Assembly: GCA_001898185.1 (NCBI GenBank) | Contig: MKTI01000013.1 | Coordinates: 434,001-498,000, forward strand | DNA length: 64,000 nt | Reading direction: 5' to 3' | From: Cellulomonas sp. 73-145 | GTDB lineage: Bacteria > Actinomycetota > Actinomycetes > Actinomycetales > Cellulomonadaceae | Part shown: positions 33,292 through 44,542 of the stretch, in pieces | How positions within the stretch are numbered: position 1 is the stretch's first letter | How the letters are laid out: every line of letters starts with the position of its first letter | The notes under the pieces: generated by a model | Seen by the model: only the letters and a program-made list of their open reading frames with translations | The model's database searches: none | What the model was told of the DNA's origin: nothing | Made by a program: the position numbers and the translations under genes

Positions 33292-33372
33292 GCCCTCGAC
33301 CACGCCGGTGCCGGGTCGGGTCCGATCGGCCGGATCTGGGTGAGGATGGGAGCCCGCGACCCAGGAGGAGCC

Positions 33373-34032
33373 ATGCCCCGTCTGCGACTGCACAGCTTTT
33401 CGATCTCGCTCGACGGGTTCGGCACCGGTGAGGGCCTGAGCCAGGACGCGCCCTTCGGCCACGCCGGCCAGCGCCTGCCCCAGTGGATGTTCGCCACCGC
33501 GATGGGCGCCCGGATGTTCGGCCTTGAGGGCGGCACCACCGGCGTGGACAACGAGCTGGCCGAGACCGCCTGGCAGGGCATCGGTGCCGAGATCATGGGC
33601 CGCCGCAAGTTCCACACCGGCACCGGCCCCATCCCGGAGGACTGGCACGGCTGGTGGGGACCCAACCCGCCCTTCCACACCCCGGTGATCGTGCTGACCA
33701 GCCACCCGCGGGAGCCGCTGACGATGGAGGGCGGCACCACGTTCCACTTCCGCGACACCACGCCGGCCGAGGCGCTGCGCGAGGCGTTCGAGCTGGCCGA
33801 CGGTCAGGACGTGCGCCTGGGCGGCGGCGTTACCACCGTGCGGGAGTTCCTCGACGCCGACCTGGTCGACGAGTTCCACATCGTGGTGGTGCCGATCGTG
33901 CTGGGCCGCGGGCAGCGGCTGTGGGACGGGCAGGAGGGGCTGGAGTCCCGGTTCGACATCCGGGTGGTTCCGGGTGACGACGGGGTGACGCACCTGGTCG
34001 GCACGCGGCGCGACTCGTCTTCCGTCCTCTGA
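33373..34032 (+). CDS. Dihydrofolate reductase/RibD C-terminal family protein
   Basis: The 219-residue protein has the RibD_C/DHFR-like fold: an N-terminal LHSFSISLDGF strand, a GAEIMGRRKFHTGTGP substrate loop, DVRLGGGVTTVREFL and the VVPIVLGRGQRLW C-terminal strand. These are NADPH-binding reductases of unknown substrate, common in actinobacteria. ATG 33373 follows AGGAGG. A second, truncated copy of the last two-thirds of the gene lies at 38011-38403. Confidence 0.85.
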   Translation: MPRLRLHSFSISLDGFGTGEGLSQDAPFGHAGQRLPQWMFATAMGARMFGLEGGTTGVDNELAETAWQGIGAEIMGRRKFHTGTGPIPEDWHGWWGPNPPFHTPVIVLTSHPREPLTMEGGTTFHFRDTTPAEALREAFELADGQDVRLGGGVTTVREFLDADLVDEFHIVVVPIVLGRGQRLWDGQEGLESRFDIRVVPGDDGVTHLVGTRRDSSSVL

Positions 34033-34206: not shown

Positions 34207-34626
34207 ATGCGAGTGCGTCGGTGGATCGCGCTCGGCGTCGTGCTCGGCGTCGCGGTCCTCGTCGCCGGAGCGATCCTGCTGCTGGCTCCGTGGCCGTCGG
34301 GAACACTCCGTGAGGTCGGCGACCGATTCACTCCAGTCGGAGGCAGCTCGGACGGCCCGGGCACCTACGAACCGCGCCGTCTGCTCTGTCTCGGCGACAA
34401 CGCCTGCCCCTCGGTGCACCGCTCGTGGACGGTGCCTTCGCCGCTGACGAATGAGCAGCTGCAGCGCAGCATCGACGCCGCCGGCTACGACGCAACGATC
34501 AGGGGCGACTGCAGTACCGGGAACTGTGTGGCGCGCGGGACCGCACAGGGCTGGAACGTCACCATCGTTGCCCTGAGCAACCCCGGCGACCGGACTGCCG
34601 GGGTCTCGCTGTCGGTCCAGCGCTAG
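34207..34626 (+). CDS. Small membrane-anchored hypothetical protein
   Basis: The 139-residue protein has one N-terminal membrane helix (about residues 6-29) and an extracytoplasmic domain with four cysteines that may form two disulfides (in LLCLGDNACPS and DCSTGNCVA). The cleavage site is unclear, so it could be anchored or secreted. ATG 34207 follows a GGGGCGGAG stretch. The end overlaps the convergent GGDEF gene by 4 bp. I do not recognise the family. Confidence 0.65.
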   Translation: MRVRRWIALGVVLGVAVLVAGAILLLAPWPSGTLREVGDRFTPVGGSSDGPGTYEPRRLLCLGDNACPSVHRSWTVPSPLTNEQLQRSIDAAGYDATIRGDCSTGNCVARGTAQGWNVTIVALSNPGDRTAGVSLSVQR

Positions 34627-35426
34627 GCGTCCTCGGAGGCCAGGAGCCGCTGAGCGTGGCGGTCCTTGCTGTACAGGACGCACTTCCCGTGGCCGCGCCG
34701 CTTCGCGTCGTACATCGCCGCGTCGGCCGCCGCGACTATCGCGTCCGGGTCGGTGAGGCCGTCCGGAACCATGGCGACACCGATGCTGCTCGTCGCGGTG
34801 TGCCGGTTCCCGCGCAGCTCGTACGGCTCTTGGAGCCTGCGGGTGATGCGACGGGCCACGGCCAGCGCCGCCGCACCCGTCGGGACCTCGTCGAGCAGCA
34901 CCAGGAACTCGTCCCCGCCCACGCGCGCGACGGTGTCGGCCGTCCTCAGCTCACCCCCGATGCGTCGAGCCACCTCGACCAGCAGCTGGTCACCGGCGGC
35001 ATGACCGAGGGTGTCGTTCACAGCCTTGAAGTCGTCGAGGTCGAAGAACAGGACGGCGAAACCGGTCGGCCGCGTGGCCGCCAGGTCCAGGCGGCGGCCC
35101 AGCAGGTCCCAAAAGGCCGCACGGTTCGCCAGCCCGGTCAGGTCGTCGTGCAGCGCGCGACGCCTGAGCTCCTGCGTGAGGATCGCCAGCTCGGCCGTCC
35201 GGTCCGCGACGCGCTGCTCGATCTCCTGGTACGACGCCTCGAGCTCCTCGCCGAGCGCGTTCACGCCCGCCGCGACCGCGTCGAGGATGTCACCGGCGGG
35301 ACCGACCGTCGCACGGGCGTCGAACCGCAGGGCGGAGAACGCCTGGATCACGTTCACCACCTCGTCGAGCCGGCGTTCCACCTCCGAGGCGCCGTCCGAG
35401 TCCGGTGGCACCACGGTGGTGGTCAC
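34623..35426 (-). CDS. Diguanylate cyclase (GGDEF)
   Basis: The 267-residue protein has an N-terminal region with a coiled-coil linker (about residues 50-85) followed by a GGDEF domain. The active-site motif is intact, RVGGDEF at residues 170-174, so it should make c-di-GMP from two GTP. The region before it lacks a transmembrane helix and a known sensor domain. GTG 35426 overlaps the stop of the upstream STAS-like gene by 4 bp (GTGA) with AAGGAG 8 bp before it, so the two proteins are translationally coupled. A c-di-GMP riboswitch lies upstream of the pair. Confidence 0.9.
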   Translation of the reverse strand: MTTTVVPPDSDGASEVERRLDEVVNVIQAFSALRFDARATVGPAGDILDAVAAGVNALGEELEASYQEIEQRVADRTAELAILTQELRRRALHDDLTGLANRAAFWDLLGRRLDLAATRPTGFAVLFFDLDDFKAVNDTLGHAAGDQLLVEVARRIGGELRTADTVARVGGDEFLVLLDEVPTGAAALAVARRITRRLQEPYELRGNRHTATSSIGVAMVPDGLTDPDAIVAAADAAMYDAKRRGHGKCVLYSKDRHAQRLLASEDA

Positions 35427-35809
35427 ACCAGATACTCCTTGAGCCACGCGACGGCGGCGTCCTGGTCCTCGAAGAGTCTGGTGGGTGCCTTCGGCTTGCT
35501 CACGTTGACGAAGAAGGTCGCCATCATCCGGCTGAGCGGGTTGCCCACCACCAATGCGACGGCGGACACCACCTCGTGCCGCCGGATGAACTCCATCCGC
35601 GCCGCACGGTCCTGCGGGCCCGCGTCCGTGGTGTGCACCAGGAGCGGGGCAGGACGACCACCCGTGAGCTCGCCCATCGCCGCGATGGTCGCCTGCGCGT
35701 CCGCGAGGCCAGACGGGACGTGGGGCGCCCAGGTGAGTTCGACGACGCCGTCCGGCCGCACCCAGATGCGGAACTTCTCGTGCGTGATCTGCGGGACGTC
35801 GCTGCTCAT
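35423..35809 (-). CDS. STAS/SpoIIAA-like small protein coupled to a diguanylate cyclase
   Basis: The 128-residue protein looks like a STAS/SpoIIAA-fold protein (the DUF7793-like group): a beta-strand start, PAPLLVHTTDAGPQDR and a C-terminal LFEDQDAAVAWLKEYL helix. It could bind and control the cyclase, as SiaC does with the GGDEF protein SiaD in Pseudomonas; this is an analogy, and I see no phosphorylated Ser motif. It is the first full gene of the riboswitch transcript. ATG 35809 overlaps the stop of a short leader frame (ATGA). Confidence 0.65.
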   Translation of the reverse strand: MSSDVPQITHEKFRIWVRPDGVVELTWAPHVPSGLADAQATIAAMGELTGGRPAPLLVHTTDAGPQDRAARMEFIRRHEVVSAVALVVGNPLSRMMATFFVNVSKPKAPTRLFEDQDAAVAWLKEYLV

Positions 35810-35868
35810 CGGGTCACCGTCAGTCGCGGTGCGCCGGTCGGGGCGACATCGCCCGGGTTCTCAGACAT
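35806..35868 (-). CDS. Possible 20-residue leader peptide
   Basis: A frame of 20 codons starts at ATG 35868 (MSENPGDVAPTG...) and ends in TGA overlapping the start of the STAS-like gene by 4 bp. The next gene lacks its own strong Shine-Dalgarno site, so coupling to this frame would be useful. A convincing ribosome-binding site for the frame itself is not seen. It lies just after the riboswitch. It may be a chance open frame. Confidence 0.35.
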   Translation of the reverse strand: MSENPGDVAPTGAPRLTVTR

Positions 35869-35884
35869 GGTGACCACAGGTGTC

Positions 35885-35972
35885 CCCTAGCTCGGCGGCC
35901 CGGCTGACCGCGAGGGCCCCGTGGCTTTGCGTCCCCGCCTCGCGACGGGTTTGCCGTTTCGTCTCTTGGACG
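35885..35972 (-). promoter_or_regulatory. Cyclic di-GMP-I (GEMM) riboswitch
   Basis: On the minus strand, a leader contains GGCAAACC, then a stem CCCGUC/GGCGGG closed by a GCGA (GNRA) tetraloop, then GGGACGCAAAGCCACGGG. These three elements, in this order, are the core of the c-di-GMP-I aptamer. A second hairpin, CUCG...CGAG, follows (about 35889-35912). The aptamer lies 76 bp upstream of the STAS-like ATG and so heads the STAS/GGDEF operon. Boundaries are approximate. On/off sense cannot be told. Confidence 0.85.
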
Positions 35973-36011
35973 TCACATCGGCAGGCGGCGTCACTTTGTG
36001 AGGAGTCCACG

Positions 36012-36052
36012 CGTGGCGGCGCCGGCCGCGGACCCGGGCCGGCGCCGCCACG
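36012..36052 (-). terminator. 16-bp stem-loop terminator downstream of the SDR gene
   Basis: CGTGGCGGCGCCGGCC (36012-36027) and its perfect complement (36037-36052) enclose a 9-nt loop. It lies 40 bp after the stop of the minus-strand SDR gene and should end its transcript before the riboswitch-controlled operon. Confidence 0.75.
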
Positions 36053-36091
36053 GCTGAGCCGGCGGCGCAGGCGCGGTCGCGGCCCGGACCC

Positions 36092-36946
36092 TCACCCCTC
36101 CCGGTCGGTGGCCTGCGCCAGCTCCCGGCCGGCCTCGACCTCGGCCGCCAGCGCCGCCGCCCGGTCGCCCGCCATGCCCGAGGAGTCAGAGCCGAGCTGC
36201 TGGCGCAGGGGCCCGTCCGCACGGGTCGCGACGGCGACGATCGCTTCAGCTGCCTTCGCGGGGTCGCCGAGCTGGGTGCCGGGCATCGCCTGGTGCGCCG
36301 CGATCATCGTGTGGACTCCCGGGTAGGCCGCGAGCTCGGTGCCGGCGAGGGCGAGCGACCCCTCCCGGAGGAAGTCGGTGTCGAAGTACCCGGGCTCGAG
36401 GATGCTGACGCGGATCCCGTGCTCGGCCACCTCGCCCGCGAGGGACTCGGTCAGGCCCTCGACGGCGTGCTTGGCCGCGCAGTACAGGCCCCACCCCGGG
36501 AAGGAGAGGAGACCCAGGATCGACGACACGGTCATGACGTGGCCGGACCGGGCCGCACGCATGACGGGCAGCACGGAGCGCAGCACGTTCCAGGTGCCGT
36601 TGACCTGGACGTCGAACATGCGCCGGACGTCCGCGTCGCTGGTCTCCTCGACGGCGCCGAGGTAGCCGTACCCGGCGTTGTTGACGACGACGTCGATGCT
36701 CCCGAACCGCGCGACGCTCGCCTCCACGGCGGCCCGGACGGAGTCCTCGTCCGTCAGCGCCACCTCGAGGGGGAGCAACCCGCCCGTCGGTGCGCCGTCG
36801 AGTGCGGCGAGCAGGCGCGACGTCGACCGGGTGGTCGCTGCGACGTGGTCGCCGCGCTGCAGGAGGTGGCGGACCAGGGCGAGGCCGAGGCCGCGCGAGG
36901 TGCCTGTGACGAGCCAGGTGGCGGGACGGTCGGTGGGGTACGTCAT
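36092..36946 (-). CDS. Short-chain dehydrogenase/reductase
   Basis: The 284-residue classical SDR has TGTSRGLGLAL for NADP binding, NNAGYGYLG, and YCAAKHAVEG as the catalytic YxxxK. The substrate is unknown. ATG 36946 follows GAGAGGAA; longer frames upstream have no such site. It is divergent from an XRE-type regulator at 37094 with 147 bp between, an arrangement common for reductases controlled by their neighbour. Confidence 0.87.
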   Translation of the reverse strand: MTYPTDRPATWLVTGTSRGLGLALVRHLLQRGDHVAATTRSTSRLLAALDGAPTGGLLPLEVALTDEDSVRAAVEASVARFGSIDVVVNNAGYGYLGAVEETSDADVRRMFDVQVNGTWNVLRSVLPVMRAARSGHVMTVSSILGLLSFPGWGLYCAAKHAVEGLTESLAGEVAEHGIRVSILEPGYFDTDFLREGSLALAGTELAAYPGVHTMIAAHQAMPGTQLGDPAKAAEAIVAVATRADGPLRQQLGSDSSGMAGDRAAALAAEVEAGRELAQATDREG

Positions 36947-38010: not shown

Positions 38011-38403
38011 CACTGGGATCACCGATGGGGAGCCGACCCGCCGTTCCACACCCCGGTCATCGTGCTGACCACCCACGTGCGGCAGCCCTTGACGATGGAG
38101 GGCGGCACCACCTTCCACTTCCGCGACACCACGCCGGCCGAGGCGCTGCGCGAGGCGTTCGAGCTGGCCGACGGTCAGGACGTGCGCCTGGGCGGCGGCG
38201 TCAGCACCGTGCGGGAGTTCCTCGACGCAGATCTGGTCGACGAGTTCCACATCGTGGTGGTGCCGATCGTGCTGGGTCGCGGGCAGCGACTGTGGGACGC
38301 GCAGGAGGGGCTGGAGTCCCGGTTCGACATCCGGGTGGTGCCGGGTGACGACGGGGTCACGCACCTGATCGGCACAAGGCGCGGCTCGTCGTCCGCTCTC
38401 TGA
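38011..38403 (+). pseudogene. Truncated second copy of the RibD/DHFR-like gene
   Basis: This frame matches the last ~130 residues of the protein at 33373-34032, from WGxxPPFHTPVIVLT to the stop, with very few changes at the protein level and clearly high DNA identity (most of 33712-34020 against 38083-38391). The first third is missing and no start or ribosome-binding site precedes it; the frame joins sequence just after the XRE stop at 37999. It is a degraded partial duplicate. A downstream GTG at 38062 could make a 113-residue product but would lack the substrate loop. Confidence 0.85.
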
Positions 38404-44469: not shown

Positions 44470-44542
44470 TGCGCCTGGGCGGATTCGAACCGCCGACACC
44501 CGCTTTAGGAGAGCGGTGCTCTATCCCCTGAGCTACAGGCGC
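44470..44542 (-). tRNA. tRNA-Arg (anticodon CCU)
   Basis: The minus strand folds as a full cloverleaf: acceptor GCGCCTG/CAGGCGC, D-arm GCTC...GAGC, anticodon stem CCGCT/AGCGG with loop CTCCTAA (anticodon CCU), T-arm GGCGG-TTCGAAT-CCGCC, and discriminator A. The CCA is not encoded. It reads AGG codons. Its 3' end faces the DUF262/HEPN block, the usual side for tRNA-targeted integration. Confidence 0.96.

Follow-up and report, generated by a model that had tools for sequence, protein, structure and literature searches.

The operon described here lies on the minus strand of a 64,000-nucleotide stretch of DNA from Cellulomonas sp. 73-145, which was analyzed at its full length and is referred to below as the window. 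By ascending coordinate, the operon and the region upstream of it comprise:

34623..35426, minus strand, gene for a GGDEF protein of 267 aa (predicted diguanylate cyclase)
35423..35809, minus strand, gene for a DUF7793 protein of 128 aa (predicted SpoIIAA/STAS-like fold)
35806..35877, minus strand, leader ORF of 23 codons with a GTG start, its stop TGA overlapping the DUF7793 ATG (ATGA)
35884..35888, minus strand, Shine-Dalgarno-like AGGGG directly after the aptamer
35891..35965, minus strand, c-di-GMP-I riboswitch aptamer
35977..36002, minus strand, CTCA-N16-GCCGAT, read as a sigma-28 (FliA/WhiG)-type promoter motif
36014..36050, minus strand, perfect 14-bp GC-rich inverted repeat (arms 36050-36037 and 36027-36014), read from the sequence

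The product of the first gene matches DUF7793 (PF25056, 90.4 bits, cutoff 26) and, just above the cutoff of 25, the SpoIIAA-like family (PF11964, 26.9 bits). An AlphaFold2 model built from 29 sequences (mean pLDDT 91.2) had as its best PDB match 2q3l, titled as having a SpoIIAA-like fold (E 2.4e-5, TM 0.66), with STAS anti-sigma antagonists next among the matches, and the description of this gene as STAS-like in a first-pass annotation of the sequence therefore appears to hold. The nearest PDB sequence, 3bl4 (E 1e-10), superposes poorly on the model, with a TM of 0.30-0.34. The second gene overlaps the first by GTGA at 35426-35423, as had also been annotated, and we place its likely start at 35426 in preference to the first available start of that ORF at 35447. 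Its product is predicted to be a diguanylate cyclase: the GGDEF domain (PF00990, 151.7 bits) has the intact active-site motif reported earlier (34905-34919), and an intact RxxD I-site (RTAD, 34935-34946) is located five residues before it. As there are ten GGDEF matches in the genome, together with ten EAL matches, the operon provides one cyclase gene among several. Elsewhere in the window are two closely similar ORFs a few kb apart, as judged by eye (33340-34032, which matches RibD_C, and the shorter 38062-38403), and a tRNA gene on the minus strand at 44470-44542 (Rfam, 68.2 bits).

An Rfam cmscan of the whole window identified a sole c-di-GMP-I aptamer, at 35965-35891 on the minus strand, with an RF01051 score of 52.5 bits (E 2.1e-7) against a gathering score of 35. 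The covariance-model search proposed in the first-pass annotation thus returned a significant match, and the GEMM aptamer that it had recognized on this strand was found, within narrower limits than the leader of 35885-35972 given at that time. The GNRA-capped stem of that account is likewise present, the P2 loop being GCGA.

Eleven bases upstream of the aptamer match is the sequence CTCA-N16-GCCGAT, which does not appear in the first-pass account and which we read as a flagellar sigma-28-type promoter motif. It matches once in the window, where shuffled sequences gave a mean of 0.15 matches and at least one match in 15 of 100 shuffles. Genome-wide, there are 18, 24, and 28 copies in the own genome, C. 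wangsupingiae (G118), and C. endophytica (G058), respectively, vs. 5, 7, and 2 copies of the reversed pattern. Six of the 18 own-genome copies fall at 1-36 kb of contig 4, a stretch that also contains both Flagellin_N matches of the genome and a sigma gene resembling FliA (165 bits with TIGR02479, short of its cutoff of 189.6). The many copies in the three genomes were examined in part, with the genes after 7 of the 18 own-genome copies being scanned: on contig 4, five motifs stand ahead of FliM, FlbD, a rod protein of the flagellum, a protein resembling a chemoreceptor, and an HDOD protein that also matches EAL below the cutoff; a second chemoreceptor follows the motif scanned on contig 6, and a GGDEF gene follows that on contig 1. 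The motif is therefore common to flagellar genes of the same genome. It is not exclusive to cyclase operons, as CTCA-N14-18-GCCGAT also occurs ahead of a non-cyclase aptamer locus (L149), and GCCGAT is found within 70 nt upstream of the aptamer in 22 of 187 aptamer loci (one duplicated). The inverted repeat is situated between the promoter motif and an upstream SDR gene, with no T-run after it.

A protein search detected DUF7793 in three genomes from the genus (n = 81), nine from the family (n = 221), and four from the order (n = 396), with the own genome being counted each time, as well as in 4 of 44 genomes of the genus of G641, which the names of homologues suggest to be Demequina. For comparison we used 12 DUF7793-GGDEF operons, those of the window and 11 relatives; nine of the 12 come from the window's family and the other three from the genus of G641. 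The operons of G518 (L260) and Actinotalea subterranea (L096) do not differ in their upstream sequence and were counted once. A distant locus of 35% identity (L098), at which no aptamer was found in the scan, was left out, as was G933, whose five tandem DUF7793 copies (G933:C1:1608820-1611123, L267-L271) are more distant. The identity of these copies is 48-56%, a repeated stretch was seen before them, and an Rfam scan of two of the five loci (L267 and L271) gave no aptamer at E 0.1.

All 12 operons retain an intact GGDEF motif, preceded at five residues by an intact RxxD I-site. A strong aptamer (55.4-65.7 bits) is present in eight, and a weak aptamer (28.5-29.1 bits) in two, A. subterranea/G518 and G501. 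In the remaining two, G504 and G507, the Rfam scan found no aptamer at E 0.1; by eye, a relic can be made out clearly in G504 and faintly in G507. For aptamer state on a tree of the 12 operons, the point estimate is three changes, of which the well-supported branches force one. Since the operon persists in four relatives that have no strong aptamer, the switch is dispensable in them. The promoter motif, in the form CTCA-N16/17-G[CT]CGAT, occurs in eight of the nine family operons, including the four without a strong aptamer (G504 has GTCGAT), and was not found in G572 or in any of the three operons of the genus of G641. That the motif is present without a strong aptamer and vice versa indicates that the two are separable layers.

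Six bases separate the AGGGG from the GTG of the leader ORF, and a purine-rich site is found at the same place in relatives. As the AGGGG is too distant from the DUF7793 start and suitably near the leader GTG, it would serve the leader ORF. The order of aptamer and STAS-like gene is as first annotated, but the two do not adjoin directly, because the leader ORF intervenes, and the first regulated start codon is probably other than that of the STAS-like gene. Seven of the eight operons with a strong aptamer have such a coupled leader ORF, which starts at the aptamer-side Shine-Dalgarno and ends on the next start codon, with ATGA or GTGA as the overlap with DUF7793. These leader ORFs are 19, 20, 21, 21, 23, 34, and 34 codons long, and in all of them the frame is kept and the last residue is Arg. 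In the eighth operon, that of G572, the aptamer-side frame runs on into DUF7793. The leader ORF is absent from all four operons without a strong aptamer, in which the relic site leads directly to the start of DUF7793 (with a longer spacing in G501). By composition alone, each of six leaders tested had a chance of 0.57-0.83 of being open, so that openness by itself is no evidence, and the argument is instead that the frame is kept across different lengths. The keeping of the frame over five lengths, with fusion or a direct start elsewhere, points to translation being initiated at the aptamer-side site and handed on to DUF7793.

Considering these features together, we think it fairly likely that a class-I c-di-GMP riboswitch controls the translation of this small c-di-GMP-making operon via the leader ORF. 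The mRNA would start just before the aptamer, from the promoter that the sigma-28-type motif suggests, and the aptamer would bind c-di-GMP, as its intact pocket bases lead one to expect. Binding would alter access to the Shine-Dalgarno directly after the aptamer, from which the short leader ORF would be started. Ribosomes that finish the leader ORF would re-initiate on DUF7793 via the observed 4-nt overlap and then on the cyclase via the second observed overlap, translational coupling being presumed at both. Control at the level of translation is likely, since no intrinsic-terminator-like site was called in 34400-36200. The DUF7793 protein would probably gate the cyclase as a SpoIIAA/STAS-fold partner, by analogy with SiaC and SiaD. 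The first-pass annotation had proposed a feedback loop, and with aptamer and cyclase gene together in 8 of the 12 operons this is still the best reading; what has changed is the layout, from which the leader ORF and the promoter motif had been missing. The feedback is probably negative, with the sign somewhat more plausibly OFF: high c-di-GMP would most likely close the site, which would act atop product inhibition at the I-site.

The identity of the ligand requires consideration, because a permissive scan of the window favors RF03167 (c-di-GMP-I-GGC) over RF01051, at 56.8 bits, slightly below the RF03167 gathering score of 59, and the RF03167 score was the higher wherever the E-value scan let both models compete. 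The cutoff of 59 is passed by four of the other seven strong aptamers, C. wangsupingiae (60.5), C. endophytica (63.2), G572 (65.5), and G641 (65.7), with G502 (56.7) and G844 (57.1) falling below it; for G941 (55.4) the gathering scan gave RF01051 only. These scores argue for an aptamer that senses another ligand, either that of the c-di-GMP-I-GGC class or 3',3'-cGAMP, and we nevertheless regard this as very improbable. In the alignments the GGC-diagnostic position is A, not G, in all eight strong aptamers (the window reads GCAAAGC, the GGC consensus GCGAAGC), and with its sub-cutoff score the window aptamer was not assigned to the GGC class. An A in place of G20 is a mark of cGAMP binders (GEMM-Ib), and a G20A mutant is mentioned in those parts of the literature available to us. 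The equivalent base is G in the window and in the seven other strong aptamers, leading us to reject GEMM-Ib membership also. The GGC-diagnostic base of the window aptamer we take to be the equivalent of A47 of V. cholerae Vc2, and the G20 and C92 equivalents were assigned on the same assumed numbering. The Vc2 contact list, in the part of PMC7288161 that was accessible, fits this numbering and so partly supports it. As the window aptamer has the bases of c-di-GMP binders at all three of these pocket positions in the alignments, its expected ligand is c-di-GMP.

With c-di-GMP as the ligand, the same parts could also act with the opposite sign, such that c-di-GMP frees the Shine-Dalgarno, giving a positive feedback that could produce a bistable motile-to-sessile switch. 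When the C. endophytica leader is folded freely, its Shine-Dalgarno (CGAGGG) is paired with a P3-region CCCUCG, making masking in the apo state conceivable. This complement is perfect in C. endophytica but merely partial in other leaders by eye, the I-site opposes runaway synthesis, and a pooled swap test of the aptamers of the genus favors pairing of the Shine-Dalgarno arm with the 5' arm: for each of the three ways of defining the arms, not one permutation in 2000 paired as well as observed, a signal that came from arms cut closer to the likely transcript and that sequence relatedness inflates in the pooled form. Within classes, the permutations of 2000 that reached the observed pairing numbered 189, 760, and 681 for the bldC class, 2, 47, and 114 for the small-ORF class, and 12, 107, and 1 for the others; with wider, 26-nt arms the test was null in both large classes (1845 and 875 of 2000 reached the own-pair mean). 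The P1 stem did not form in the free fold of the window leader (z-score -0.11 over 221 nt), and Shine-Dalgarno accessibility in the free folds of nine leaders (seven cyclase, two others) was 0.30-0.70, with no pattern that gives the sign. On this evidence we consider positive feedback unlikely, and less so than a further alternative, which we judge improbable, that the aptamer regulates the leader peptide or the transcript only, with DUF7793 and the cyclase being translated independently. A GGGG seven bases before the DUF7793 ATG of C. endophytica, possibly a weak ribosome site, is consistent with independent translation. However, no clear Shine-Dalgarno was seen by eye before DUF7793 in the window or in C. 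wangsupingiae, in operons that lack the leader it is DUF7793 whose start follows the relic site, and the DUF7793 of G572 is in frame with the aptamer-side start.

Riboswitch control of translation through the leader ORF, our preferred reading for this operon, can be placed against the aptamers found elsewhere. At least one c-di-GMP-I match was found in 58 of 60 genomes of the genus vs. 4 of 38 relatives outside it, and in 43 of 394 genomes of a class sample, for which fewer candidates were scored per genome. Among 185 aptamers from the genus/relatives search and the class sample, at least three are followed within 2.6 kb by a same-strand GGDEF gene (those of the window, C. endophytica, and L130), a lower bound since some contigs end early. 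At L130, the gene is a PAS-GGDEF-EAL frame that carries a GGDKF motif and begins about 0.4 kb downstream of the aptamer; re-examination of L116, L120, and L121 revealed no following GGDEF gene.

Several other gene types recur after these aptamers. Directly ahead of a BldC-like gene, c-di-GMP-I aptamers occur at 57 or more of 126 genus loci, e.g., L002 1501-1576 (own genome C9:401663-401738), and one representative of the BldC-like proteins matches the BldC family NF033787 (101 bits, cutoff 77). By a strict pattern, at least 49 of the 126 loci have an aptamer ahead of a short ORF of the type MDQRG...AWAGLAAR...PAQR, e.g., L001 1501-1738 (own genome C6:335842); a looser pattern gave 59 loci, two of them sigma-linked, at which 52 distinct sequences of 38-58 aa occur, and one representative product had no Pfam or NCBIfam match. 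Sigma-factor genes follow aptamers at three loci (L055 538-1416, L056 1521-2399, and L060 1611-2552). G006 and G011 each have a FliA/WhiG-like sigma gene that shares a GTGA overlap with the short ORF (at L055 it scores 169 bits with TIGR02479, short of the cutoff of 189.6), and in C. endophytica a WhiG-type sigma factor (252 bits) has a stretch similar to the short ORF as its N-terminus. That the short ORF overlaps or is fused to a sigma gene suggests that the small protein is linked to sigma factor control. At L033, L034, L044, and L051 the aptamers precede exported-looking proteins, that of L034 having PKD and glycosyl hydrolase 26 matches; three of these four aptamers have an altered core, GGCACACC, in common with the C. 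endophytica cyclase aptamer. In the class sample, type IV pilin-like genes with an FTLIELLVV stretch follow the aptamers at 14 of 27 loci viewed by eye (L103, L106-L110, L112, L113, L117-L119, and L122-L124).

We tentatively propose that in Cellulomonas and its kin c-di-GMP may run an RNA-based network, with aptamers ahead of BldC-family regulators, a conserved small protein or FliA/WhiG-type sigma factor, and a sigma-28-driven cyclase, and with short ORFs as a recurring translational relay.

According to the portion consulted of one review (PMC6366702), feedback on the ligand's own pathway is typical of riboswitches but rare among those for c-di-GMP, and a 2025 review (PMC12564702), as far as excerpted, places GEMM RNA upstream of certain cyclase and phosphodiesterase ORFs. 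An aptamer ahead of a cyclase for its own signal is therefore uncommon, though not unheard of. Among the literature on c-di-GMP riboswitches in Actinobacteria or Cellulomonas, DUF7793, FliA with c-di-GMP-I, and BldC with riboswitches, seen in part and mostly outside subscription content, we recognized no paper describing this arrangement. The finding goes beyond the first-pass account: the cyclase operon with a riboswitch at its head is conserved and linked to sigma-28, and its leader ORF is probably a translational relay. The coupled leader ORF makes such a relay testable, the promoter motif connects the flagellar sigma factor of actinobacteria with a gene for c-di-GMP synthesis, and relatives with intact and decayed aptamers, in which the enzyme gene and promoter motif are kept, offer a ready comparison on feedback to a second-messenger enzyme.

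Compared with known systems, the window aptamer shares with c-di-GMP-I aptamers (GEMM-I, RF01051, e.g., Vc2) its structure, GNRA loop, and pocket bases, with a score above the cutoff, and unlike those examples it heads an operon in which a coupled leader ORF is followed by a cyclase gene. To c-di-GMP-I-GGC (RF03167) it is similar overall, yet without the consensus G and below the gathering score. In the SiaC-SiaD system of Pseudomonas aeruginosa a STAS-like partner acts with a diguanylate cyclase, and here too a SpoIIAA-type partner is encoded next to a GGDEF protein. Among the PDB matches of the DUF7793 model is a weak one (E 0.13) to a chain of 6kko, the SiaB-SiaC complex. The window cyclase matches NF038266 (diguan_SiaD) at 133.2 bits, below the equivalog cutoff of 290, and was not assigned to the SiaD type; the window operon also has no kinase or phosphatase gene, in contrast to SiaC-SiaD. 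In Streptomyces, development is under c-di-GMP control through BldD and RsiG-WhiG. BldC- and WhiG-type actinobacterial regulators are tied to c-di-GMP in both cases, but in Cellulomonas it is RNA aptamers that stand ahead of the bldC-family and sigma-factor genes, and the network proposed above, if true, would parallel at the RNA level the control that Streptomyces exerts through proteins.
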